Source: Komagataeibacter nataicola
GTDB taxonomy: Bacteria > Pseudomonadota > Alphaproteobacteria > Acetobacterales > Acetobacteraceae
Direction: 5' to 3'
Length of the DNA: 64,000 bases
Assembly (NCBI RefSeq): GCF_003207795.1
Contig: NZ_NIRT01000006.1
Location: 62,001 to 126,000, forward strand
Part shown: positions 5,935-64,000 of the stretch, in pieces
How positions within the stretch are numbered: the first letter of the stretch is position 1
Layout of the letters: each line of letters starts with the position of its first letter
Translations under genes and position numbers: made by a program
Notes under the pieces: model-generated
What the model was told of the DNA's origin: nothing
The model's database searches: none
What the model saw: the letters and a program-made list of their open reading frames with translations, nothing else

Positions 5935-7707
5935 TCAGAACAGCAGGATCATACCGCCCGAGGCGCTGTTGTCGCTTTCCTTGTAGGGGCCGTGGGCTGC
6001 GGAACTGGTATGGGCGTATTCGGCCACCAGGTTCAGCCAGTCGGTCATCTTGTAGTAGGCGGCACCCACTTCGGATTCATTGCGGCGCACGAGATCGGGG
6101 TCTTTCTCGCCCGGTGCCAGATACAGGTTACTGACACCATAGCTGCCTACGAGTTTGAACTTCTTGGTGAAGTTATACATCATCTGGACATAGTAGCCTT
6201 CCGATGCGCGCTTGCGGCCGTTACTGGCCACGCCATCAAAGAACAGGCCGGTCGTGCCAAGGCCGCTGCCGCGATAGTAGTAGCCCACAAACTGCGCCGG
6301 GCCATAGGTCAGCTTCGTGCCGATTTCGCCCGCTTCCGCCGTGACACCATGCTTCTGGCCCGGAATGACGGAAACATCCGCAGTACTGGTAGTAGAGTAG
6401 GGAAATGCCGTTACGCCATCTGCTTCAAGCAATTGGGTGGTGACCGTTGTCGTCTTGCTGACCGTCAGGTCCTGCTGGTGCTGCGTCAGGAAGCTGGCCC
6501 AGATGCGGGCACTCAGGCCGCCAATCTTGAAGTCATATGTCACCTTGCCCTGGATCATGGGCGAGCTGTGCTGCGTGGAGGCTGCCGAATAGGCATTGCC
6601 ATTGCCATCCGCGCCCGAGAAATCGAACTCATCAAGCGGCTGCAGGATGCCGATCGTGCCCTGGAAGCCCTTGATGGTGGGCGACTGGTAGGAAATCTGC
6701 GGAATCCAGTCGGCATAGACATAACCAACGCCAATACGGCCAAGCGAGGTGTTGCCCGGCGCCGAGTTGCTGCCGGTCGAGCCCACGCTGAGCAGCGTGG
6801 CGTCATCAAGGATGGCGTCGCCACCAAAGATGCCAAGGTCACGACCAATCTTGAACGTGCCCCATTTCTTGTTGCCCGCCGTCACGTAAACCTGACGAAA
6901 ATCGATGCCGGCCGTGCCAAGGCCCACCGGGCTGCCGCCGGTATTGGCGTTGAAGGCGCCGTTCTTGGCATTGTTGATGCCGGGATACATGCCCATCACG
7001 GCGGCAAGGTCGATGCCGTTCTGCGTGGTCGAAAGCTTGAGAATCAGGCCTGCGGGCAGCAGGCCGTTACGCAGCGCCGAGGAATCGAACCCGCTCGACC
7101 CCGTCGAGACACCACCAGCCACCGGCATGCCGCCAGCAGGGCTGTTATAGGTATAGAAACCGTTGATGAAGCCCGACAGGTTGATGTCGATCGGCCCGGC
7201 CTTGAAGGTCAGGCCCTTGCCGGGCACGTATTTTTCCATCCGCACAAGCGACATGCCGCCGCCAAGGCCCATGGAATGCTGGGCGGCAAGCCAGGTGGAC
7301 TCGGCCGAGGCCGCACTGGCCTGCGCACTGGCCGCCGCCTGCTGCGCCTGGGCGAGCACATAGTCGGGGTCCATGCCGTTGCCGCCAATCTCGATCTGGC
7401 CGGGGGGTTGAACCGCCTGGCCCATTGCGGTGCGCATGGGCGCATGGGCGGCTGTCGTGCCCATGTGGCGCGCGGCGGGCACGTATTGCTGCGTGCGGGC
7501 GGCACTGGTCGCGGCCTCGTGCACATGTTGCAGGTGATGGGCGAGCAGGCCACGATATTCACCCTGCGTCAGGCTGCCCTTCGCCTTCAGGATATCGAGA
7601 AGTTCACTATAATCGTCAGCCCATGCCTCATCGACGCAGGCAAGCGACGCCCCCCCGCTTGCCATAACAACCACCGCGCCAATACGCGCCAATTTTCCTG
7701 CCGACAT
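5935..7707 (-). CDS. Outer membrane porin, DcaP-like
   Basis: The 590-residue product has a signal peptide (MSAGKLARIGAVVVMASGG..., cleaved near A-W-A-D) and a helical, Gln/Ala-rich N-terminal region that may form a periplasmic coiled coil. A beta-barrel follows, beginning near IDINLSGFINGFYTY and ending in the terminal Phe (GGMILLF) expected of outer membrane proteins. The pattern FRQVYVTAGNKKWGTFKIGR is typical of DcaP/OprP-type trimeric porins. I chose the ATG at 7707 because AGGGAG lies about 9 bases upstream and it starts the signal peptide; a longer frame to 7908 has no support. The substrate is unknown. A related porin lies at 32169-34013. Confidence 0.82.
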   Translation of the reverse strand: MSAGKLARIGAVVVMASGGASLACVDEAWADDYSELLDILKAKGSLTQGEYRGLLAHHLQHVHEAATSAARTQQYVPAARHMGTTAAHAPMRTAMGQAVQPPGQIEIGGNGMDPDYVLAQAQQAAASAQASAASAESTWLAAQHSMGLGGGMSLVRMEKYVPGKGLTFKAGPIDINLSGFINGFYTYNSPAGGMPVAGGVSTGSSGFDSSALRNGLLPAGLILKLSTTQNGIDLAAVMGMYPGINNAKNGAFNANTGGSPVGLGTAGIDFRQVYVTAGNKKWGTFKIGRDLGIFGGDAILDDATLLSVGSTGSNSAPGNTSLGRIGVGYVYADWIPQISYQSPTIKGFQGTIGILQPLDEFDFSGADGNGNAYSAASTQHSSPMIQGKVTYDFKIGGLSARIWASFLTQHQQDLTVSKTTTVTTQLLEADGVTAFPYSTTSTADVSVIPGQKHGVTAEAGEIGTKLTYGPAQFVGYYYRGSGLGTTGLFFDGVASNGRKRASEGYYVQMMYNFTKKFKLVGSYGVSNLYLAPGEKDPDLVRRNESEVGAAYYKMTDWLNLVAEYAHTSSAAHGPYKESDNSASGGMILLF

Positions 7708-8187
7708 AGTATTAAACTCCCTATGCGCATTCCTGTTGTATAAAACCCGGCGGGTCAATGGCCCCCCCTGGCTGTGGCAGGGGGCAGGGCAGGCGTGGCA
7801 GGGCGCAGGAGCGTGCAGGGATTTCTCCCCCCATGGTGGGAGGAAGGGCGCGCGCAGGACAGGTTCCGTTATGGATTCGTTGGTTAATCTTCCTTTTTTT
7901 TCATGCAATGTTCAAAAAATGGTCATAACGGAACACATGTGCGTTTTGGGTCTTGTGGTGTGCGACAAGGCAGTACGTCATGATGCCCGGTGGACTGGAA
8001 CAGTCCGGTTTCGCAAGGAGCGCAAAGATCCATCAAACAATCGTGTGCGGCTCAATTCGTGGTTTATGTTCAATAAAACGGCATGAGCAAGCCTGTTGCC
8101 ACCGCAGGAATACACAGTAGAGCCTCACAAAGCTGTGTTTGTATTTTATTAACTTAGTTCTTGACCGTATCTTCCATGCCCGCCGGT
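7708..8187. other. Intergenic region upstream of the DcaP-like porin
   Basis: No convincing gene was found in these 480 bases. Part of the stretch is AT-rich. It holds an exact 11-base inverted repeat (GTTCCGTTATG at 7863-7873, CATAACGGAAC at 7924-7934) and a small GGACTG/CAGTCC hairpin near 7991-8005. Both could be regulatory sites or untranslated RNA structure. Confidence 0.4.
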
Positions 8188-49949: not shown

Positions 49950-52319
49950 ATGAGTGAAACCCCCTCCGCAACCCCGCTTGCCACGGCGGATGTCGCGCTG
50001 TTCAACAAATGGTGGCACGCAGCCAACTACCTGTCGATTGCCCAGATCTACCTGCTGGCCAATCCGCTGCTGCGTGAGCCGCTCAAGCTCGAGCACACCA
50101 AGCCGCGCCTGCTGGGGCACTGGGGCACCACGCCGGGGCTGAACTTCCTGTATCTGCACCTCAACCGCATCATCCGCGAGCAGGACCGCAGCATCCTGTT
50201 CGTGGCGGGCCCCGGCCACGGGGCGCCGGGTATTGTGGCCAGCACCTATCTTGAAGGCACGTATACCGAATACTTCCCCGAAGTGACGCAGGATGCGGAC
50301 GGGCTGGCCAGGCTGGTCAAGCAGTTCTCCTTCCCCGGCGGCATTCCCAGCCACGCGGCCCCCACTACGCCGGGTTCGATCAACGAAGGTGGTGAACTGG
50401 GTTACTCGCTCTCGCACGCCTATGGCGCGGCGTTCGACAATCCTGATCTGGTCGTGGCCTGCGTTGTGGGCGATGGCGAGGCCGAGACCGGGCCGATGGC
50501 CACGTCATGGCACAGCAACAAGTTCCTCGACCCCAAAACCGATGGCGCGGTGCTGCCGATCCTGCACCTCAATGGCTACAAGATCGCCAACCCTACGGTG
50601 CTGGCCCGCATCTCGCCCGATGAACTGGTGAGCCTGTTCAGGGGTTACGGCTATGACCCGATCGTGGTGGAAGGCCACGATCCGGACATCATGCACCAGA
50701 AGATGGCCGTGGCGATGGACACGGCCTTTGCGAAGATTGCGGAAATCCAGAAAGCCGCGCGTGAGAAGAACGACACCACGCGCCCGGCCTGGCCCATGAT
50801 CATCATGCGCACGCCCAAGGGCTGGACCTGCCCCAAGACGGTGGACGGCCTGCGCACGGAAGGGTACTGGCGCGCCCATCAGGTGCCCATTACCGACATG
50901 ACCAACCCCGAACACCTCAAGCTGCTCGATGAATGGCTGCACAGCTATAAGCCTGAGGAACTGTTTGACGAAAACGGCGCCCTGATGCCCGAAATCGCGG
51001 CCCTTGCCCCCAGGGGCGACCGCCGCATGAGCGCAAACCCGCACGCCAATGGTGGCCTGCTGCGCCGCGACCTGCGCCTGCCGGATGTAACGGAGTATGC
51101 CGTGACCGTGGAATCGCCGGGTCATGCGCTTGGCGAGGGCACGCGCGTGCTGGGCACGTGGCTGCGCGATGTGATGAAGGAAAACCTGCCTGCGCGTAAC
51201 TTCCGCGTGCTGGCGCCGGATGAAAACAACTCCAACCGCCTCAACGCGGTGCTGGATGTGACCAACCGCGCGTGGAACGCCGAGACCTTTGATTACGATG
51301 ACCATCTGGCTGTCGATGGCCATGTGATGGAGATCCTGAGCGAGCATACCTGCCAGGGCTGGCTGGAAGGCTACCTGCTGACCGGGCGGCATGGCTTCCT
51401 GTCGTGTTATGAAGCGTTCATCCACATTGTCGATTCCATGGTCAACCAGCATGCCAAGTGGATCAAGCAGGCGGATGAGGTGCCCTGGCGCGCGCCGATC
51501 GCATCGCTGAACTATTTGCTGACCTCGCATGTGTGGCGGCAGGACCATAATGGCTTCAGCCATCAGGACCCCGGCTTCATTGACCATGTGCTGAACAAGA
51601 AGGCCAAGACGGTGCGGGTGTTCCTGCCGCCCGATGCCAACACCCTGCTGTGCACGGCAAAAGCCTGCCTTGAAAGCCGCGACCGGGTGAACGTGATCGT
51701 GGCGGGCAAGCAGCCCGAGCCGCAATGGCTGGATATGGACTCCGCCATCGCCCACTGCGCCAAGGGCATTGGCATCTGGGAATGGGCCAGCAACGACAAA
51801 GGTGGCGAGCCCGATGTGGTCATGGCCTGCGCGGGTGATGTGCCGACCATCGAAACGCTGGCCGCCGTGCAGTTGCTGAACAAACACCTTCCGGAGCTGA
51901 AGATCCGCGTGATTAACGTGGTGGACCTGCTCACGCTTGAATCGCGCAGCCAGCACCCTGACGGGCTGGAGGATTATGTATTCGACAGCCTGTTCACCAC
52001 CGACAAGCCGGTCATCTTCGCTTTCCACGGTTATCCGGCGCTGATCCACAAGCTGATCTACAAGCGCACCAACTGCCGCAACTTCCATGTGCATGGCTAC
52101 CGCGAGGAAGGATCCACCACCACGCCGTTCGACATGACGGTGCGCAACAACCTCGACCGTTTCCACCTGGTGCAGAACGTGATCCGTCGCGTGCCCGGCC
52201 TGTCGGAAAAGGCGGCCTATGCCAACGAGGCGATCAGCGACAAGCTGGTCGAGCACACGCGCTATGTGGCGCAGTACGGGCAGGACCTGCCTGAAATCAG
52301 GAACTGGCGCTGGTCATAA
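49950..52319 (+). CDS. xfp: Xylulose-5-phosphate/fructose-6-phosphate phosphoketolase
   Basis: This ThDP-dependent enzyme splits xylulose 5-phosphate (and often fructose 6-phosphate) to acetyl phosphate. It has 789 residues. The N-terminal [37 protein letters not shown] and the cofactor segment [19 protein letters not shown] are typical. The C-terminal domain has [13 protein letters not shown]. With ackA it forms an ATP-yielding bypass of glycolysis, as is common in acetic acid bacteria. AAGGAACG precedes the ATG. A terminator follows. Confidence 0.95.
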
Positions 52320-52373: not shown

Positions 52374-52713
52374 CATGGGGGACATGAAAAGCCGGTTCGG
52401 GAAAAATTCTGGACAGATAAAAGTTTGAGGCTGGCAGCCGGGAAAAGATGCAGGTCTGGCCGAGGGGGGGCCATTGTATCGCCGTGGATGCCGTTGATCT
52501 GGTTACGCCCTTCACTGAGAAGCGCCGGGCGTGGTTGATCCTTTCTATGGCGGAACCTGGAGACGTCGAGAGTCCGGCAGCGCGTCCCGCCCCCTTTGGC
52601 CTTTCCAATCATGGGTAAAACCAGCCTCGAAAACACCATGCGGTGTGCTAATTCCATGACATGAAAAAGACCTTGTTGGCTGGAACGGGCACCGGCAGGA
52701 AGAGGCCTGCCTG
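52374..52713. other. Intergenic region between xfp and pglX
   Basis: These 340 bases hold no supported gene. A weak half-copy of the dispersed repeat (GATAAAAGTTTGAGG) is at about 52415-52429. I looked for brxC, pglZ or transposase remnants by eye and found none I could name. A promoter for pglX should be here. Confidence 0.4.
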
Positions 52714-55700
52714 ATGGATATCAACGCGCTGAAACGATTTGCCCAGACCTCACGCATCTGGATGATCGATCAGGTCACGGCCCGGCTCAACAGGATGCTT
52801 GCCGAGGAAACCCGGTCCGTCCCTGCCGGGACACTCACAGCGCTGAAGGCGGCCATTGAAAGGAACCGCGAGGACGTCATCGAGCAGGTAGCCTGCACCT
52901 GGTTCAACCGCTTTACGGCGCTACGATTCATGGATGTGATGGGCCTGACCACCCCGCATGTCCTATCATTCGTCTCTCGGGCCATGCCGGGGAGCCAGGC
53001 CCCGCCCGTTATCGCCGCCTATCCCGACAGCGCCCGCACCGACCATGACGGACAGGAAGAAGCCTGCCGGCTGCGCGTGCTCCAGGCCTGCCATGACTGG
53101 CATGGCCGCATGCCCTTCCTGTTTGCAAAGGCCGGGGATTACACCGATCTTCTCATGCCAGCCGATCTTTTGGCACCTGATGGCTTTCTCGCCCGTCTGC
53201 GCGCGGTGATGACCGAGGCGGCGTGCCAGCATGTCGAGCTCATCGGGTGGTTGTACCAGTTCTATATTTCGGCAAAAAAGGACACGGTCTTTGCCGGGCT
53301 GAAACGGAACATCAGGATCACGCCCGCGAATATTCCTGCAGCGACACAGCTTTTCACGCCGCACTGGATCGTGCGTTACCTCGTGGAGAATTCGCTGGGG
53401 CGGCTGTGGCTGCGCAACCGCCCGCAATCAGAGCTGGCGGCGAAGATGGCGTATTACATCGCCCCCCAGAAGCCCGAAGCAGACTTCGTGCCTCTAGGCC
53501 GCCCTGAGGATCTGCGCATCTGCGATCCCGCCTGTGGCGCGGGCCATATGCTGACCTACAGCTTTGACCTGCTATATGAAATCTATGCCGAGGCAGGCCA
53601 CGCTCCCCACAAAATCCCAGGCCTGATCCTGACGCATAACCTGACAGGCATCGAGATCGACGCGCCCGCGGCCGCACTCGCGGCCTTCGCCCTGTTGATG
53701 AAGGCGGCCACACGGCTGGGGCGGCGGCAGTTCCTGCGCCTGCAGGTACGGCCCAATATTGTCGTCATGCGCAACGTTACCTTCACTGCGGCCGAAATGG
53801 CAGGGATCGCCGCCGTGGTCGGGCGCGACCTGTTCACACCCGGCCTGCGCGCGATGCTGGGGCAGTTCGAACAGGCACAGAATCTGGGCGCGCTGATCGT
53901 GCCCGTACAATGCAACGTGCCTGACGTGCGGCGCCGTATTACGGCCTGCGATAGCGGCGCGGACCTGCGGCTGAAGGATGTGCTGGCCCGTGCCCTGACC
54001 GTGCTGCGCATGGCCGAAGCGCTTGCCCCCCGCTACCACGTAGCCGTGACCAATCCACCCTATATGGGGGCGAAAGGCATGAACACGGCGCTGGCCGCTT
54101 TCATCAAGGCCGATTACCCGCACAGCAGGTCCGATCTGTTTGCCGTATTCATGGAGCGCGCACTGGGGCTGACCGTGCGGCACGGGCTGATGGCCATGAT
54201 AACCATGCAGTCATGGATGTTCCTTGCCTCCTATGAAAAACTGCGTGCCCGCCTGCTGGCCGAGACCATGATCCTGTCCATGGCCCATCTGGGTGAGCGG
54301 GCGTTTGACAGTATCGGCGGCGCGGTTGTTTCCACTACGGCATTTGTCATCGGCAATGCGCGCGATACGCGGCAGCGGGGCACCTTCATTCGCCTTGTCG
54401 ATGGCGGATCGGAGGCTGAAAAGAAAACCCGGTTGCAAGAGGCCATCCATCATCCGGATAGCGGGTGGCGCCATCAGGCTTCAGCGGAAGATTTTGAACA
54501 TGTGCCGGGCCAGCCGATTGCGTACTGGCTGTCGGAAAATTTCAGGCAGTGCTTTGCCCGCTTTCCCCTGATCGGGGCATCGGCCGCCGCCGTATGCGGC
54601 ATGACCACGGGCGAGAATGCACGCTTTGTCAGGGCATGGCATGAAGTTGACCTGAACCGGCTCATGACGGATGCCGCCTGCCCCGCGCAGGCCCGGCAGT
54701 CGGGCTGCAAATGGTTCCCCTATGCCAAGGGCGGTGAATTCCGCAAATGGTATGGCAACGCGGATTACGTGGTGAACTGGCAGGACGATGGCCGCGACAT
54801 CCTGGCCTCGGGGCGGGCCTATCCCCGCGCAAGGCAACGGTATTTCAGCCCCTCGGTCAGCTGGTCTTTCCTGTCATCAGCCTATTTTGGCGTGCGCCAG
54901 CAGCCGCGGGGCTTCATCTTTGATATGGCTGGCTGCTCCCTTTTCCCCCATGAGCCTGACCAGATCAGCCTTCATACGGGCGCCCTATGTGCAAAAACGG
55001 CCGGCCTTTTCCTTCAGGTCCTGAATCCGACGCTGAATTTTCAGGTCAATAACGTCGCTTCCATCCCGCTGCCCCCTTTCATCGACACGGCTTCCGTCCA
55101 GGCTATCGTGCAGGCGGCCATACGGATCAGCAAATGCGACTGGGACGACCACGAAGCCTCATGGGATTTCACCACGCTGCCGCTGCTTTCAGTTGCCTGT
55201 CAGGGCGATACGCTCGCGCAGGCCTATGCCCGCCTGCGCGCACGCTGGCAGGACATGACCGACAGCCTGCAGCGCCTGGAGGAAGAGAATAACCGCCTTT
55301 TCATCAACGCCTATGGATTACAGGGCGAGCTGACCCCCGAGGTGCCGGTCAGGGACATTACGCTCACCTGCAATCCTGCCTATCGCCATGGCATGGGAGC
55401 TGGCGATGGCGAAGCCCGCCTGTGTGCGGATACGATGGCCGAACTCCTGCATTATGCCGTGGGCTGTCTGTTCGGGCGCTACAGCCTGGATGCTCCCGGC
55501 CTCATCCTTGCCCATCAGGGTGCGGGGCTTGAAGCCTATCTGGCCCGCGTGCCCCAACCCCGCCTTGTCCCCGTGCGTGACAATGTTATCCCCGTGCTGG
55601 CGGTCGACTGGTTTGCCGATGATATTGTAACGCGCACCTGCGAATTCCTGCGCGTGACCTTTGGCGCGGCGCAGTTTCCTGAAAACCTTGCCTTCATTGA

Positions 55701-56148
55701 ACGCGTGCTCGGCAAGAACCTGCGCCGGTGGTTCCACAGGGATTTCTTTGATGACCATGTAAAACGCTACGGAAAGCGGCCTGTTTACTGGATGTTTTCC
55801 AGCCCTGGCGGGAGCTTCCGTGCGCTGGTCTACATGCACCGCTACCAGCCTGATACCGTCTCCACCGTGCTGGCCGCCTTAGGCCAGTTCATCGCACGGC
55901 TGGAGAAGGAACGAACCCGGCTGCACAAGCGGGCCAATGAAACAGGCACTTTGCCCGATCAGCGCAGAAGGGCGCAAAAGAGCGAAGGAATGCTGACCTT
56001 GCAGATTGAGGAACTGACCGCATGGGCGAATGACGTGCTCCATCCGCTGGCGCAGCGGAAGATCACCCTTGATCTTGATGAAGGTGTGAGGCGCAACTAC
56101 CAGCTTTTTGCCGGGGCCCTAAAACCGGTCAGGGGCATGCAGGACTGA
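52714..56148 (+). CDS. pglX: BREX-type adenine-specific DNA methyltransferase PglX (orphan)
   Basis: PglX methylates adenine in a short non-palindromic site and is the marker enzyme of BREX phage defence. The 1144 residues match the BREX-1 type throughout: N-terminal KLRIDQV-like helix and TWFNRFTALRFMDV (62-74), WLYQFYISAKKD (179-190), TQLFTPHWIVRYLVENSLGR (211-230), SAM motif DPACGAG (271-277) and catalytic NPPY (447-450). The length is normal. None of the usual partners (brxA, brxB, brxC, pglZ, brxL) is nearby: xfp is upstream and an aldolase gene downstream. GC content is close to that of the neighbours. Confidence 0.9.
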   Translation: MDINALKRFAQTSRIWMIDQVTARLNRMLAEETRSVPAGTLTALKAAIERNREDVIEQVACTWFNRFTALRFMDVMGLTTPHVLSFVSRAMPGSQAPPVIAAYPDSARTDHDGQEEACRLRVLQACHDWHGRMPFLFAKAGDYTDLLMPADLLAPDGFLARLRAVMTEAACQHVELIGWLYQFYISAKKDTVFAGLKRNIRITPANIPAATQLFTPHWIVRYLVENSLGRLWLRNRPQSELAAKMAYYIAPQKPEADFVPLGRPEDLRICDPACGAGHMLTYSFDLLYEIYAEAGHAPHKIPGLILTHNLTGIEIDAPAAALAAFALLMKAATRLGRRQFLRLQVRPNIVVMRNVTFTAAEMAGIAAVVGRDLFTPGLRAMLGQFEQAQNLGALIVPVQCNVPDVRRRITACDSGADLRLKDVLARALTVLRMAEALAPRYHVAVTNPPYMGAKGMNTALAAFIKADYPHSRSDLFAVFMERALGLTVRHGLMAMITMQSWMFLASYEKLRARLLAETMILSMAHLGERAFDSIGGAVVSTTAFVIGNARDTRQRGTFIRLVDGGSEAEKKTRLQEAIHHPDSGWRHQASAEDFEHVPGQPIAYWLSENFRQCFARFPLIGASAAAVCGMTTGENARFVRAWHEVDLNRLMTDAACPAQARQSGCKWFPYAKGGEFRKWYGNADYVVNWQDDGRDILASGRAYPRARQRYFSPSVSWSFLSSAYFGVRQQPRGFIFDMAGCSLFPHEPDQISLHTGALCAKTAGLFLQVLNPTLNFQVNNVASIPLPPFIDTASVQAIVQAAIRISKCDWDDHEASWDFTTLPLLSVACQGDTLAQAYARLRARWQDMTDSLQRLEEENNRLFINAYGLQGELTPEVPVRDITLTCNPAYRHGMGAGDGEARLCADTMAELLHYAVGCLFGRYSLDAPGLILAHQGAGLEAYLARVPQPRLVPVRDNVIPVLAVDWFADDIVTRTCEFLRVTFGAAQFPENLAFIERVLGKNLRRWFHRDFFDDHVKRYGKRPVYWMFSSPGGSFRALVYMHRYQPDTVSTVLAALGQFIARLEKERTRLHKRANETGTLPDQRRRAQKSEGMLTLQIEELTAWANDVLHPLAQRKITLDLDEGVRRNYQLFAGALKPVRGMQD

Positions 56149-56204: not shown

Positions 56205-56963
56205 TCAGTCGCGGTAATCGGGCTGTTCGCGGTCAAGCTTGCGCCGCAGCGCCTGCCAGATCAGTCGGCCTTCATCGGGGTCATCCTCAAACTGCTTTCT
56301 GGCACGCAGGATCTGCGCCTCGGAAGGGGTATGCAGGGGCACGCCCGTGGACTGCGCCGCGATCTGGATCCGGCAGGACTGCTCAAGGTAATACATGCGG
56401 TAGAAGGCTTGCGCGATGGTGGCGCCTACGGTGAGCAATCCATGGTTTTGCAAAATGAGCGCATTGCGCGCGCCAAGGTCGCGCACGAGGCGCTCGCGTT
56501 CGCTCAGATTGTCATCGGCGGCAATCCCCTCATAGGGGTGGAAGCCAACCCTGCCGTAGAATTCCATGTTGATCTGGTTAAGCGGCAGGATGTTCTGCTC
56601 CTGCGCCGCCACCACCATGCCCGCAAGCGTGTGCGTATGCATGACGCATGCGGCATCGGGCCTGCTGCGGTGGATGGCGGAATGAATGACAAACCCCGCC
56701 GGGTTGATCGGCCACGAGGTTTCCTGCCGGGGCAGGCCATCGGCATCGACCACCACCAGCGAACTCGCGGTAATCTCCTCGAACAGAAAGCCAAAGGGAT
56801 TGACCAGATAGGCATGCTCACGCCCCGGCAGCCTGACCGAAAGATGGGTATAGACAAGGTCGGTCATGCCAAAAAGCGCCATGAGCCGGTAAGCGGCGGC
56901 AAGATCCTCACGCACGGCCCTTTCGGTGGGGGCGGTTGAGGGCGCGGGCGAAAGGGAAGACAT
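56205..56963 (-). CDS. Class II aldolase/adducin family protein
   Basis: The 252-residue enzyme belongs to the metal-dependent class II aldolase/adducin family. The segments YTHLSVRLPG, VNPFGFLFEEIT, ACVMHTHTLAGM (metal-binding histidines) and LILQNHGLLTVG are present. The substrate is not evident; members include sugar-phosphate aldolases and dehydratases. I chose the ATG at 56963, where the conserved helix begins; a frame from 57035 adds unrelated residues. It is divergent from the LysR gene. Confidence 0.82.
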   Translation of the reverse strand: MSSLSPAPSTAPTERAVREDLAAAYRLMALFGMTDLVYTHLSVRLPGREHAYLVNPFGFLFEEITASSLVVVDADGLPRQETSWPINPAGFVIHSAIHRSRPDAACVMHTHTLAGMVVAAQEQNILPLNQINMEFYGRVGFHPYEGIAADDNLSERERLVRDLGARNALILQNHGLLTVGATIAQAFYRMYYLEQSCRIQIAAQSTGVPLHTPSEAQILRARKQFEDDPDEGRLIWQALRRKLDREQPDYRD

Positions 56964-57150
56964 GATCCGTGAATATTCCTTCCTGTGGCAGGCAAGTCGG
57001 CTCTTATGGGGCTGGGGCACAGCAGCCGGACCCATGCGGCACGGCGCGACGATTACCTACCATCGGCCGCGCGTAAACAGGAATTTTTCAAAGTAAGCTT
57101 CAGTCAGAAGCCTGAAGACATATTTTGTAATATACAGTCAATAAAAAACA

Positions 57151-60797: not shown

Positions 60798-61627
60798 AGC
60801 TCAGGACTCATAACCAGAAGATGACGGTTGCAGCGAGGCAGATGGCTGAGAAGAAGACACTCGGGCATCTGTCATAACGTGTTGCGACCCGTCTCCAGTC
60901 CTTGATTCTTCCGAACATGATCTTGATACGGCTGCGGCGTTTGTATTTCCGCCTGTCGTATCTGACCGGTTTTCCGCGAAATTTCCTGCCAGGAATGCAG
61001 GGTTTTATCCCTTTCTTCTTCAGGGCATCCCGGAACCAATCTGCGCCATGCCCGCGATCGGCCAGCATCCATCGGGCTATGGGAATACTGTCGAGAAAGG
61101 CTGCTGCACCTGTATAATTACTGATCTGCCCCGCCGTTATGAAGAAGCTCAGCGGTCGTCAGTTCTGATCGGTGATGGCATACAACTTCGTATTCATACC
61201 GCCTTTTGTGCGACCGATCAGGCGACCTGGATCCCCTTTTTTGAATCGCAGGTTCGAAGCCGTACGATGTGCCTTGAGACAGGTCGGATCAATCATGATG
61301 GTCTGGGGCTCTTCCTGTCCAGCCGCCAGGCCATCCATCATTCTGATGAAGATCCCCATGACACTCCAGCACTTCCAGCGGTTGTAGAGTGTCTTGTGTG
61401 GACCGTATTCCCGGGGCGCATCGCGCCAGCGCAGAGCGTTCCGATTAACGAAGATGATGGCGCTCAGCACGCGACGGTTATCAACACGAGGCCTGCCGTG
61501 GCTCTTGGGAAAGAAAGGCCGAAGACGCTCCATCTGCTCGTCCGTCAGCCAATACAGATCACTCATCTTCAGTCTCCTCACAGAGCCTGAATCAGATTTC
61601 TCATCTCAAATTGATGGGCCCTGAGTC
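60798..61627 (-). mobile_element. IS5-family insertion sequence (about 830 bp), defective
   Basis: Imperfect terminal inverted repeats are seen: AGCTCAGGACTCATAAC at 60798-60814 and, inward from the right, GACTCAGGGCCCATCAA at 61627-61611. Both ends are flanked by TA (60796-60797 and 61628-61629), the target duplication of this group. It carries one transposase gene on the minus strand. It resembles IS5-type elements of acetic acid bacteria; a named IS cannot be assigned without a search. Confidence 0.8.
60808..61566 (-). pseudogene. IS5-family transposase, inactivated
   Basis: The frame reads as one protein of about 250 residues interrupted by an in-frame TGA at 61159-61161, where related transposases usually have glycine (GGA). 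DDE motifs are partly present: D in TIMIDPTCLKAHRT and D in ARWMLADRGHGADW. The third catalytic residue, usually E in RIEIMFGR, is K (RIKIMFGR). Both changes would inactivate it. GGAG precedes the ATG at 61566. Confidence 0.85.
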
Positions 61628-61831
61628 TAAAGCGTCAGGTTCCGAGAGGGCCAGATGGGCCTGAGAGAATAATTCTGTGGTTCTGGCATGAAGCAAAGAA
61701 GCGCGTTTGCGGGCTTCATTCTGGTCGCCTGTTTTTAAAGAAACCCAGATTTCCCGCCGATTTAAGGCTGTTCGCAGGGTAGGGGGAACAATACGGCGGA
61801 AGTGATAGGTGGTGCCTCGGACACGGAGCAT
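61628..61831 (-). pseudogene. Tyrosine recombinase (phage-type integrase), N-terminal fragment
   Basis: About 68 residues remain: the start MLRVRGTTYHFRRIVPPTL and the RREIWVSLKTGDQNEARKRA segment match the N-terminal part of integrases with a DUF6538-like domain. The frame runs into the right end of the IS and stops after a few IS-coded residues. The catalytic domain is absent on the other side of the IS. GAGGGAAG precedes the ATG at 61831. Confidence 0.75.
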
Positions 61832-61920
61832 AAAATCTTCCCTCGGTGGGGAAGGACGACGGAGCAAAGGCTGCCTTTGCTCCTCATTCAGCCGAAAAAT
61901 CGTGCTATTTCAGGTGTCTG

Positions 61921-61948
61921 TGGTGCGAACTGCGGGACTCGAACCCGC
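61921..61948 (-). other. tRNA 3'-end fragment, probable attachment site remnant
   Basis: On the minus strand the stretch reads GCGGGTTCGAGTCCCGC (a perfect T arm), then AGTTCGC, discriminator A and CCA. The upstream sequence does not form the rest of a tRNA. Such fragments mark integration of elements at tRNA genes. It lies about 90 bases from the integrase start. Confidence 0.7.
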
Positions 61949-62106
61949 TCTCTTTAATCGCAACCAGTCAGACAACCCATTGAAATGGAACGATAATTTC
62001 AGACGAAATCATCCTTCGCATGGTGACTGCGGGTTTACTCTGAGGGCAAACCCGTGGGGCAGTCAAGGTTTGGAATTTACAATGGAAGGGAGGCCATACT
62101 GTAAAT

Positions 62107-62751
62107 CTATTTAAGTAATTTACGTAATTCTTCGATGCTTAAGATATCTTTGCCACGATGCAGCATTGAGTGGCAGTTGGGACAAACTGGTCTTAAGTCA
62201 CGCACTGGGTCGACGTTATATTCTTCTGATTGTTCAGCTATGGGATGAATGTGATGAACATGAATAAATCCCTGACCATGTTCACCATATTTTTCTTCAA
62301 AATTAAAATTACACACGGAACAATTTAAACCGTAATGTTGTAAGCAAGCTTGTCTAGCGGCTGTATTGCGCTCATAATGGTTTACTACTACAGTTTGTTT
62401 TGCGCCTTCTGGATACAATTCAGGATTTTGTAAAACATCCGGGTAGTCTATTTCATCAATGCGAGACCAATACATTATAACTGGTGAACCGAACCCTTCT
62501 GGAGAAGGCTGGTAGCCTATCTTTAGTATTGCTCCTTCTCGAGCTAAACGGCTTAGTTGCTGCGCCACGAAGGATACAGCAGTGTAATGGTTTCCATTTC
62601 CAGCACCACCTATGCCATATTGATTTGATATATGGTTATACAAAATCGGGTTTTGAGTATTTAAAGCATTCATTACGTCCATAGTATGGAAGATTCTATG
62701 TCGCATCGTAATAACGATTTCTTTGAGAGCTAAAAATAAATCTTGTTTCAT
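62107..62751 (-). CDS. HNH endonuclease
   Basis: The 214-residue protein has a C-terminal HNH domain: CSVCNFNFEEKYG, HVHHIHPIAEQ and DLRPVCPNCHSMLHRG (metal-binding cysteines and the catalytic His). The N-terminal 110 residues (LFLALKEIVITMRHR...) resemble no domain I can name and could sense modified DNA or bind it. It is AT-richer than the host, which fits recent transfer. Role in restriction of foreign DNA is plausible but not shown. Confidence 0.82.
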   Translation of the reverse strand: MKQDLFLALKEIVITMRHRIFHTMDVMNALNTQNPILYNHISNQYGIGGAGNGNHYTAVSFVAQQLSRLAREGAILKIGYQPSPEGFGSPVIMYWSRIDEIDYPDVLQNPELYPEGAKQTVVVNHYERNTAARQACLQHYGLNCSVCNFNFEEKYGEHGQGFIHVHHIHPIAEQSEEYNVDPVRDLRPVCPNCHSMLHRGKDILSIEELRKLLK

Positions 62752-63029
62752 ACTAAATCTTTCACGGTTGAAATGATGTTTATATAAACTTAGAGAGTTT
62801 ATGTAGAAGGTGGAAATTTGTATAGAAAGAATTAAAGTAAAGCCAGCCGTGCAAACCAGCGGACACGTTGTGTCGCGGTAGTTTGCAAACTGGTCTGGGG
62901 GCGAGCAAAGCTCTCCCCCGTGAACCCCCTCTTGATGTCAGATTTGGGGGGCAGGCTGAATGTCGGTTATTGGGAAGGGATGACCGGAATCAGCCATTCG
63001 TAGCACTTGTTGAATCCGCGACTTTCCGC
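62752..63029. other. Intergenic region in the mobile tail
   Basis: No gene is supported in these 278 bases. A GC-richer block (about 62850-62960) sits between AT-rich stretches and holds a GTTTGCAAAC palindrome near 62880-62889. It may be a remnant of another element. Confidence 0.35.
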
Positions 63030-64000
63030 TCACTTGATCCAAATACTGAGGTCTGGACTTCCGAAAGAGGGGATTTGCGTCAATCTAGCATGACCAATCG
63101 CTTGACCGATTGTAGTGAGCTCAAGCGACTTCAACGGCGATGAATTCCACTTGTCGATGACTTCCTCAATTCGAGGGCATTGCGGCTTCAACTTCTGCAC
63201 GATAGCAGCGTCGTCAGCTAGATCGGCGATGGCCTGGGCCCATATGTGTTGAACGTGTTCCACGCTAACTGATGGCGGCCGTTGCATACTCAATAAGACT
63301 TCCAAGGACATCGCCCGAGGTTGGTAGCATGCTGGGTTGAATACAGATGGAATCAGCAGCGACTTAACATCTGGCGATGTCTCCCCAACGATTTTATCGA
63401 CCTTTTCAGCACTAAAACCCTTCATGAAGAGGGCTGGATAAACTTTCCTCCAAATCTCGATAAGACGAATTTCCCCCATGGATATCGTGGCACACCTTTG
63501 TGCCACCAAATATTCGTAGGACTGTCGATCAGTCTCTAAATCATCCAACAATTCATCTATAAATGTATTCAAATGCGCGCAGAATGCGGTTAGATTATTG
63601 ACAGTAAAATTCTGCGTAAACCTCGAAAAAAAGGCGAACGCAAGTTCGCTTATTTCATTTCTAGTAAGTCGCGATATAGTTGTAATCGCTTCGTTTATTG
63701 CAAAAGCGCGGCGTGACCCGGTGCCCTCACTCGACCTCTTGGCGATAAGATCAACCAAGGTTCCGTGCGTTTCCGTATCGCCCGTTCGGGCATAGGCGCG
63801 CTGTGCCTCAATGACAACGTACTGGAAGTCAGGATCAGAAAAGGCATCTCTCTTGGCCGCAGCATCCTCGTCGAAACGCTTCATTATGCTTTCTTCGAAT
63901 GCTTTAAGTCTGACCTCCATCACGGCTGCAGCGGTTGCAGCTAACTTGGGCATCTGGTCGGCCAACGACTCCACAATGGTCCGCACATCTTCGGAACTAA
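63030..64000 (-). CDS. LPO_1073/Vpar_1526-like protein (5' end outside window)
   Basis: The frame is open to the edge of the window; a GTG at 63986 is the first possible start inside it, so the N-terminus may be missing. At least 318 residues are present. The segment DPDFQYVVIEAQRAYARTGD followed by TLVDLIAKRSSE, and later FAFFSRFTQNFTVNN, resembles the LPO_1073/Vpar_1526 family as I recall it. Function is unknown. It is soluble and mostly helical. Its position next to an HNH nuclease and an integrase remnant is typical of defence islands. Confidence 0.6.
   Translation of the reverse strand, partial: SSEDVRTIVESLADQMPKLAATAAAVMEVRLKAFEESIMKRFDEDAAAKRDAFSDPDFQYVVIEAQRAYARTGDTETHGTLVDLIAKRSSEGTGSRRAFAINEAITTISRLTRNEISELAFAFFSRFTQNFTVNNLTAFCAHLNTFIDELLDDLETDRQSYEYLVAQRCATISMGEIRLIEIWRKVYPALFMKGFSAEKVDKIVGETSPDVKSLLIPSVFNPACYQPRAMSLEVLLSMQRPPSVSVEHVQHIWAQAIADLADDAAIVQKLKPQCPRIEEVIDKWNSSPLKSLELTTIGQAIGHARLTQIPSFGSPDLSIWIK

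Follow-up and report, generated by a model that had tools for sequence, protein, structure and literature searches.

A BREX-1-type PglX without BREX partners in Komagataeibacter, a candidate stand-alone DNA-adenine methyltransferase

The pglX gene and its product

The 64,000-nucleotide stretch of Komagataeibacter nataicola DNA analyzed here (contig NZ_NIRT01000006.1, positions 62,001 to 126,000; henceforth the window) carries, between a phosphoketolase gene (xfp) and a class II aldolase gene, a gene for PglX, an adenine DNA methyltransferase of the type found in type 1 bacteriophage exclusion (BREX) systems. The gene and the parts recognized within it are as follows, the domain boundaries having been carried over by eye from Escherichia coli BrxX as given in the available text of PMC11842806.

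52609..52713, + strand: conserved upstream stretch of 95-105 bp, from the alignment of five same-locus copies
Inside 52609..52713, + strand: AGGAAGA, a Shine-Dalgarno-like element 10 bases before the ATG, from the sequence
52714..56148, + strand: orphan pglX, BREX-1-type adenine DNA methyltransferase of 1144 amino acids (aa), from the open reading frame (ORF), PADLOC, NF033452 and the AlphaFold/PDB match
52714..53247, + strand: N-terminal domain, residues 1-178, boundary from E. coli BrxX, by eye
53248..54498, + strand: methyltransferase domain, residues 179-595, with motif I at 53524-53547 and motif IV (NPPY) at 54052-54063
54499..55092, + strand: target-recognition domain, residues 596-793, from the alignment
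55093..56145, + strand: C-terminal domain, residues 794-1144, from the alignment

The preliminary description of this DNA had called the gene a full-length, motif-complete pglX, and this is borne out. The ORF is free of internal stops, and its product scores 1235 bits across the whole protein against NF033452 (BREX_1_MTaseX), for which the curated cut-off is 500; the PADLOC PglX model covers residues 1-1141 with 1247 bits, and Pfam detects Eco57I and N6_Mtase. The sequences DPACGAGH (residues 271-278) and NPPY (residues 447-450) are what we take to be motifs I and IV, respectively. The same motif names are used for PglX/BrxX in the available part of PMC11842806. An AlphaFold model built on a 46-row alignment (mean predicted local distance difference test score [pLDDT] 88.9, predicted template modeling score [pTM] 0.80) finds its closest PDB counterparts in Salmonella PglX (8q56/8c45) and the BrxX of E. 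coli HS (9ewz), with Foldseek template modeling (TM) scores, by query, of 0.86 for 8q56 and 0.79 for 9ewz. With these BREX type 1 proteins the window protein shares whole-length homology, the four-domain fold (TM 0.79-0.86), the catalytic pocket and 33-34% identity. The composition of the gene is chromosome-like (GC 0.612; GC at third codon positions [GC3] 0.731). Hence, the window protein is confirmed as an intact BREX-1-type PglX.

Two other assignments were considered and rejected. The Type IIL/IIG enzymes (MmeI, BpuSI) have a related methyltransferase and recognition fold, and the PADLOC REase_MTase_IIG model reaches 1118 bits against the 1247 of the PglX model; unlike a bifunctional Type IIG enzyme, however, the window protein shows methyltransferase domains only, with no nuclease domain detected by Pfam, and its N-terminus aligns with the N-terminal domain of BrxX. 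A DISARM methyltransferase is likewise disfavored, as the DrmMI model scores 680 bits versus 1247 for PglX and PF09369, which we take to be the DrmB-type DISARM partner, matches in 0 of 19 Komagataeibacter genomes.

Absence of BREX partners and descent of the orphan copies

The preliminary description further held that pglX stands alone, and in this it was right. Within the window, tblastn with the Ochrobactrum BREX proteins (E <= 1e-3) found no homologue of BrxA, BrxB, BrxC, PglZ or BrxL. The wider sample comprised 19 Komagataeibacter genomes, one per species, with the source genome (3.67 Mb in 105 contigs, with completeness estimated at 100%) among them; none of the 19 has a match to PglZ (PF08665), BrxC (NF033441), BrxB (PF08747) or BrxL, the last sought with the Ochrobactrum protein in a search without a built-in control. 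This BrxL query does match loci in genomes of the same family (L145-L147). BrxA was sought by tblastn in the window and in the genus loci around pglX rather than genome-wide, and none was found there. The genome search for other brx or pgl genes proposed in the preliminary description yielded, for PglX itself, the one full-length protein and a lone partial match of 25 bits to the family model, located on a different contig.

Among 347 sampled genomes of the family, PglX scores above the cut-off in eight. All three that lie outside the genus have PglZ at most 1.5 kb from the PglX match, and none of the five inside the genus has PglZ; since the same model finds PglZ in the former, its absence from the genus does not reflect a blind search. 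Assembly gaps are an unlikely cause of the missing partners, because two of the carriers (G018 and G008) are assembled in about 5 and about 8 contigs. By any partner tested, therefore, neither the locus nor the genome holds a BREX system. As a separate observation, seven family genomes outside the genus (G171, G401, G141, G294, G396, G032 and G319) also encode PglZ and have PglX-like genes split into two frames, one for the methyltransferase part and one for the recognition part.

Within the genus, a near-full-length pglX occurs in six of the 19 genomes, namely G000, G003, G007, G008, G014 and G018 (G003, G007 and G014 being Komagataeibacter xylinus CGMCC 21569, K2G30 and NBRC 15237). Five of these copies are open, and that of G014 (L029, 8183-11548) is interrupted by a single in-frame TAG (codon 619) close to where the methyltransferase and recognition domains hinge, its two halves still being open over 618 and 500 aa; G015 retains a C-terminal remnant only. 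Such patchy presence, together with the two decayed copies, argues against an essential role. Outside the genus, PglX relatives keep company with BREX genes. A scan of one genome per species (84,980 species) with two short peptide patterns yielded 254 confirmed relatives, and among the best 80 of these, 77 come from outside Komagataeibacter and 75 of the 77 have at least one BREX partner match in the stretch fetched around them, although in one of the 75 (L099) this is a weak BrxC match at a contig edge; the other two lie on contigs of just 6.2 and 3.5 kb. Of 307 plasmid records, the top two (55% identity) likewise have annotations that place them beside brxC.

A tree of 78 rows, built by a quick IQ-TREE search under LG+G4, unites the six orphans in one clade (SH-aLRT 100) with a stem of 0.32 changes per column, nested within BREX-borne alphaproteobacterial PglX. 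The clade sits beside the BREX PglX of Brucella and Nitratireductor, an exact sister relationship that is insecure given the quick search and the unusual letter composition for which the orphans were flagged. The Brucella grignonensis (L067) and Nitratireductor (L125) proteins are the nearest outside the clade, at 62-63% identity to the window protein; unlike it, they lie in BREX clusters, and their recognition domains are only 0.42-0.43 identical to its own. Five of the orphan copies are syntenic, sharing the aldolase-side site and the 95-105 bp upstream; this upstream stretch has no brxC homology, and no partner lies nearby in any of the five. Because of the shared stretch and the uniform lack of partners, loss of BREX before the split of the five is the simplest history, so that, most simply by parsimony, their common ancestor was already an orphan. 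The substitutions that accumulated later in the five copies would then record selection in the absence of BREX. The sixth copy, that of G008, lies elsewhere and may reflect an independent loss. The orphan state is thus broader than the window shows and probably older too.

We found no published description of an orphan Komagataeibacter PglX in a search that left most subscription papers aside, so the arrangement is not proven to be unreported. Judging by the accessible portions of two BREX surveys, one is anchored on BrxC and discards incomplete neighborhoods (PMC12839542) and the other starts from PglZ (PMC11341690); with such anchors, lone pglX genes would tend to escape both.

Fixed specificity, selection and candidate functions

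The recognition domain behaves differently in the orphans and in BREX-borne PglX. In all 15 orphan pairs, which are non-independent as members of one clade, it is at least 72% identical, even where overall identity falls to 64%; among BREX pairs of 60-90% overall identity, it is at least 70% identical in only 10 of 626. The Brucella and Nitratireductor proteins illustrate the latter pattern: their identity is 92-96% in both terminal domains and the two main methyltransferase segments and falls to 41% in the recognition domain. The conclusion that the recognition domain has not been exchanged within the orphan clade stands on these alignments.

The available part of PMC11842806 lists which residues of E. 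coli BrxX grip the flipped adenine and contact bases; these were mapped by eye onto an alignment with 72 BREX rows. Those of the flipped-adenine pocket (T211, L213, N447, Y450, I496, F531, I534 and V538) are the same throughout the six orphans and in 69 or more of the 72 BREX rows. The mapped base-contact residues C628, R705, M738 and N775 are common to all six orphans and variable among the BREX rows, where arginine occurs at 705 in 16 of 72 and asparagine at 775 in 37 of 72; the counterpart of BrxX D684 falls in an alignment gap. R705 corresponds to the arginine of E. coli BrxX that reads G1, and N775 to the asparagine that reads A4; Salmonella PglX, with the site GATCAG, likewise has arginine at the position of R705. 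From the match of these two residues to the BrxX readers we predict the site G-N-N-A-A-N, with the second A methylated. Loop length was considered as a cue for a purine at position 6 and is uninformative, the same length being found in 70 of the 72 BREX rows.

The orphans also depart from BREX-borne PglX at positions that are otherwise nearly universal, here defined as the 239 columns conserved in at least 95% of the BREX rows. The window protein differs at 24 of these, against a median of 3 (range 0-24) among the BREX rows, and 17 of the 24 fall in the terminal domains (N-terminal 9/42, C-terminal 8/70), with 7/118 in the three methyltransferase segments and 0/9 in the recognition domain. One change, S276A, lies inside motif I and is shared by all six orphans at a position where at least 95% of the BREX rows have serine. 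The N-terminal domain is 155-181 aa long in the five syntenic copies versus 193-231 aa in 21 alphaproteobacterial BREX rows, counting from the longest start. The available text of PMC11842806 proposes that the N-terminal domain, the C-terminal domain or the methyltransferase insert restrains BrxX until its partners bind, and Streptomyces PglX, which is without N- and C-terminal subdomains, is active in vitro according to the consulted part of a review (PMC12707154). We count the Streptomyces protein in favor of orphan activity because the parts that it lacks carry most of the orphan changes.

Selection was gauged by the ratio of nonsynonymous to synonymous substitution rates (dN/dS, by NG86), with a codon bootstrap on four of the ten pairs among the five syntenic copies. 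The ratio is 0.23-0.32 in all 15 orphan pairs and 0.235-0.323 among the five syntenic copies, the 95% bootstrap intervals of the four tested pairs lying within 0.195-0.339. By domain, the same four pairs give 0.118-0.234 for the recognition domain, 0.295-0.401 for the N-terminal domain and 0.308-0.359 for the C-terminal domain. A solitary methyltransferase role fits this purifying selection and the fixed recognition domain. Separately, synonymous divergence (dS) between the window and G018 (L026) is higher in pglX (0.39) than in four neighboring genes (0.18-0.28), which could be due to recombination or to a different codon constraint.

Taking these findings together, we see an even chance that this is a BREX-1 PglX which, its partners gone, has been retained as a stand-alone, S-adenosylmethionine (SAM)-dependent, site-specific DNA-adenine methyltransferase or DNA-recognizing protein of fixed specificity. 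The narrower proposal, that it has become an autonomous adenine methyltransferase of fixed specificity, no longer dependent on BrxB, BrxC and PglZ because its N- and C-terminal domains have changed, is advanced tentatively, as falling somewhat short of even. Under the main reading, the loss of the BREX partners would, most simply, date to the ancestor of the five syntenic copies or earlier; the protein, released from partner contacts, would have escaped the auto-inhibition proposed for canonical PglX; it would bind the non-palindromic G-N-N-A-A-N, flip the second A and methylate it without BrxB, BrxC or PglZ; and the resulting mark might serve as a lineage-specific epigenetic label or as protection against a restriction system. 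If active, the orphan would resemble CamA, the best non-BREX fold match, which is a fixed-specificity methyltransferase without a restriction partner. CamA-type orphan methyltransferases differ from it in ancestry and architecture (12-13% identity), and orphan PglX is patchy, being found near full length in 6 of 19 genomes. Dam and CcrM are further orphan adenine methyltransferases.

Several observations weigh against such autonomy. As far as the available text of PMC11842806 goes, E. coli BrxX alone binds its own site and methylates neither in vitro nor in vivo, requiring BrxB, BrxC and BrxZ, whereas here PglZ, BrxC, BrxB and BrxL were not found in the 19 genomes; Salmonella PglX, in the part of PMC11341690 consulted, does not methylate in vitro even with PglZ and BrxB. 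All four domains are kept and the methyltransferase-domain insert, at 89 aa, is as long as in relatives, so that every part proposed to be inhibitory is still in place. In the G008 copy, fewer of the near-universal positions are changed (14/239; N-terminal 2/42, C-terminal 6/70). Greater conservation of the recognition domain than of the ends is weakened as an orphan hallmark, since BREX pairs of shared specificity (L071/L072 and L081/L082) show it too. The dN/dS of four BREX comparison pairs is lower (0.09-0.20), and between the window and G018 the value for pglX (0.24) compares with 0.06 for xfp, 0.08 for a LysR gene, 0.18 for the aldolase gene and 0.23 for an ATP-binding cassette (ABC) permease gene, which places pglX under moderate constraint, no tighter than that of the loosest of these four neighbors. 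That 13 of the 19 genomes are without a near-full-length copy, with one stop-bearing copy and one remnant besides, makes the gene dispensable. Finally, many BREX clusters have other genes between brxC and pglX, and for this reason the roughly 100 bp shared upstream cannot exclude a fuller ancestral cluster.

The behavior of E. coli BrxX, which by the accessible account in PMC11842806 binds without methylating when alone, also suggests a SAM-dependent, site-specific DNA binder that does not methylate by itself and serves as a sensor, as a roadblock or together with a non-BREX partner encoded in the neighboring defense region. Nuclease-type genes do lie near pglX, an HNH gene in G018 and, in G003 and G007, a gene with below-cut-off PDDEXK_4 and weak PDC-S26 matches. 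None of the scanned neighbors recurs, however, only 2 of 19 genomes having the PDC-S26-like gene. Conservation of the upstream stretch points to a promoter that belongs to pglX itself, and the whole catalytic pocket is retained. We consider such a binder unlikely. The gene might instead be a slowly decaying, functionless remnant of a lost BREX cluster, as its absence or breakage in 14 of 19 genomes, the stop-bearing copy and the remnant, a dN/dS above that of the four BREX pairs and the 24 of 239 near-universal positions changed (BREX median 3, range 0-24) would allow. Yet the orphan state, by parsimony, predates the split of the five lineages, and where drift would bring dN/dS to about 1 it is 0.235-0.323 with upper bounds of at most 0.339 in the four bootstrapped pairs; the mapped base-contact residues, moreover, are invariant. 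We accordingly rate decay as rather unlikely.

Proximity to an integration hotspot, with a tRNA-Leu gene, attachment-site-like repeats and an integrase gene, and the position of the G008 copy beside a tRNA-Ser gene and a weakly integrase-like ORF, raise the idea of a protective methyltransferase whose marks would shield host or plasmid DNA from a BREX or restriction system with matching specificity that incoming elements carry. This we hold to be very unlikely. None of the 19 genomes has PglZ, BrxC, BrxB or BrxL; the recognition domains of the window and G008 proteins share only 0.39-0.45 identity with their counterparts in four near BREX relatives, a pairwise comparison that leaves aside the three BREX systems of the family, so that no BREX of matching specificity was seen; and the report, in the part of PMC11842806 available, that brxX deletion is not toxic weakens the need for an antidote. 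Least credible of all, and close to negligible, is a BREX system split over the genome, which the preliminary description had raised as a defense system encoded in pieces elsewhere: that suggestion is contradicted by the lack of PglZ, BrxC, BrxB and BrxL in all 19 genomes, the source genome included, and by the few contigs in which G018 and G008 are assembled.

For the dependence of canonical PglX on BrxB, BrxC and PglZ in methylation, the orphan offers a natural test case, as partner-free activity of PglX is now directly testable. Should the orphan methylate alone, its comparison with BREX PglX would point to the residues that impose partner dependence; should it not, something else would have to be preserving its active site.

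Surroundings of pglX

The features that flank pglX in the window are the following.

49950-52319, + strand: xfp (phosphoketolase), upstream neighbor, from a family match
56205..57035, - strand: class II aldolase gene, convergent with pglX, from a family/Pfam match
61921..61948, + strand: 28-bp copy of the 3' end of the tRNA-Leu(taa) gene, a probable attachment-site repeat, from repeat comparison

The placement of pglX between metabolic genes in the preliminary description holds in that xfp and the aldolase gene do flank it, though the contact with xfp is accidental. G018 has xfp followed by the ABC genes, LysR, aldolase and pglX (the ABC and LysR genes being named by eye from translations); compared with it, the window shows an inversion that spans pglX and everything up to the ABC transporter genes and brings pglX against xfp. 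Among the loci examined, pglX touches xfp in the window only, the outcome of a local rearrangement. The comparison of the locus across strains that had been suggested thus shows that the aldolase side recurs, directly beside pglX in G018 as well and beyond pnkp in G003 and G014, while the xfp adjacency is specific to the window. What recurs is the aldolase gene and a tRNA-Leu attachment region with defense-type genes.

A Pnkp-type RNA repair gene stands beside pglX or its remnant, and convergent with it, in four genomes (L028:5584-8124, L027:1693-4233, L029:11567-14107 and L031:9046-11586), with a PNKP ligase domain of 564 bits in the L028 gene; in G003, G007 and G014 this ligase gene is convergent at the 3' end of pglX. 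A functional link to pglX was rejected, as pnkp is convergent and is not beside pglX in G000 and G018. A 517-aa ORF next to pnkp was considered as a Hen1 candidate; Pfam gives it no match, and it probably represents an antisense frame. The region beyond pglX is variable, with a PDC-S26-like gene in G003 and G007, HNH in G018 and, in G003 (L028:13136-19961), SoFic-like, MzaE-like and MzaC-like genes by PADLOC. A two-gene system with the PDC-S26-like gene, which lies upstream of pglX in G003 and G007, was dismissed on account of that gene's presence in only those 2 of 19 genomes. No nuclease neighbor recurs among the flanking ORFs scanned, which are a part of all flanking ORFs.

Farther along lie an integrase gene (L033; homologue in L031) and the tRNA-Leu(taa) gene, which was found in G018, G007, G015 and the source genome and not in the fetched stretches of G003 and G014. 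Copies of its 3' end, 23-28 bp long, occur at 61921-61948 of the window and at L028:12802-12826, L029:7571-7593 and L031:6928-6955. In the source genome the tRNA-Leu gene is about 4.3 kb past the repeat, beyond the window, and pglX lies outside the stretch from repeat to tRNA; G003 and G014 probably share this arrangement, provided that their tRNA gene sits past the fetched end. In G009 and G011, which are without pglX, the aldolase, tRNA-Leu and efflux genes adjoin, constituting an empty site.

The stretch from the repeat to the tRNA gene (window 61921-64000 and L033:1-2268) is probably a small integrative element, containing an HNH gene at 62107-62751, a 318-aa ORF at 63030-63986 and the integrase; the HNH gene is AT-rich (GC 0.384), unlike the window pglX (GC 0.612). 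Just outside it are an insertion sequence (IS)-type transposase ORF (61159-61581) and a DUF6538 fragment (61601-61867). In G008 (L030, 8437-16671), pglX lies 33 bp, or 84 bp if counted to the start used in the alignment, behind a same-strand cellulose synthase gene of the bcsAB type (1545 aa), and the tRNA-Ser gene (8097-8186) and the weakly integrase-like ORF (7430-8026) lie downstream of it.

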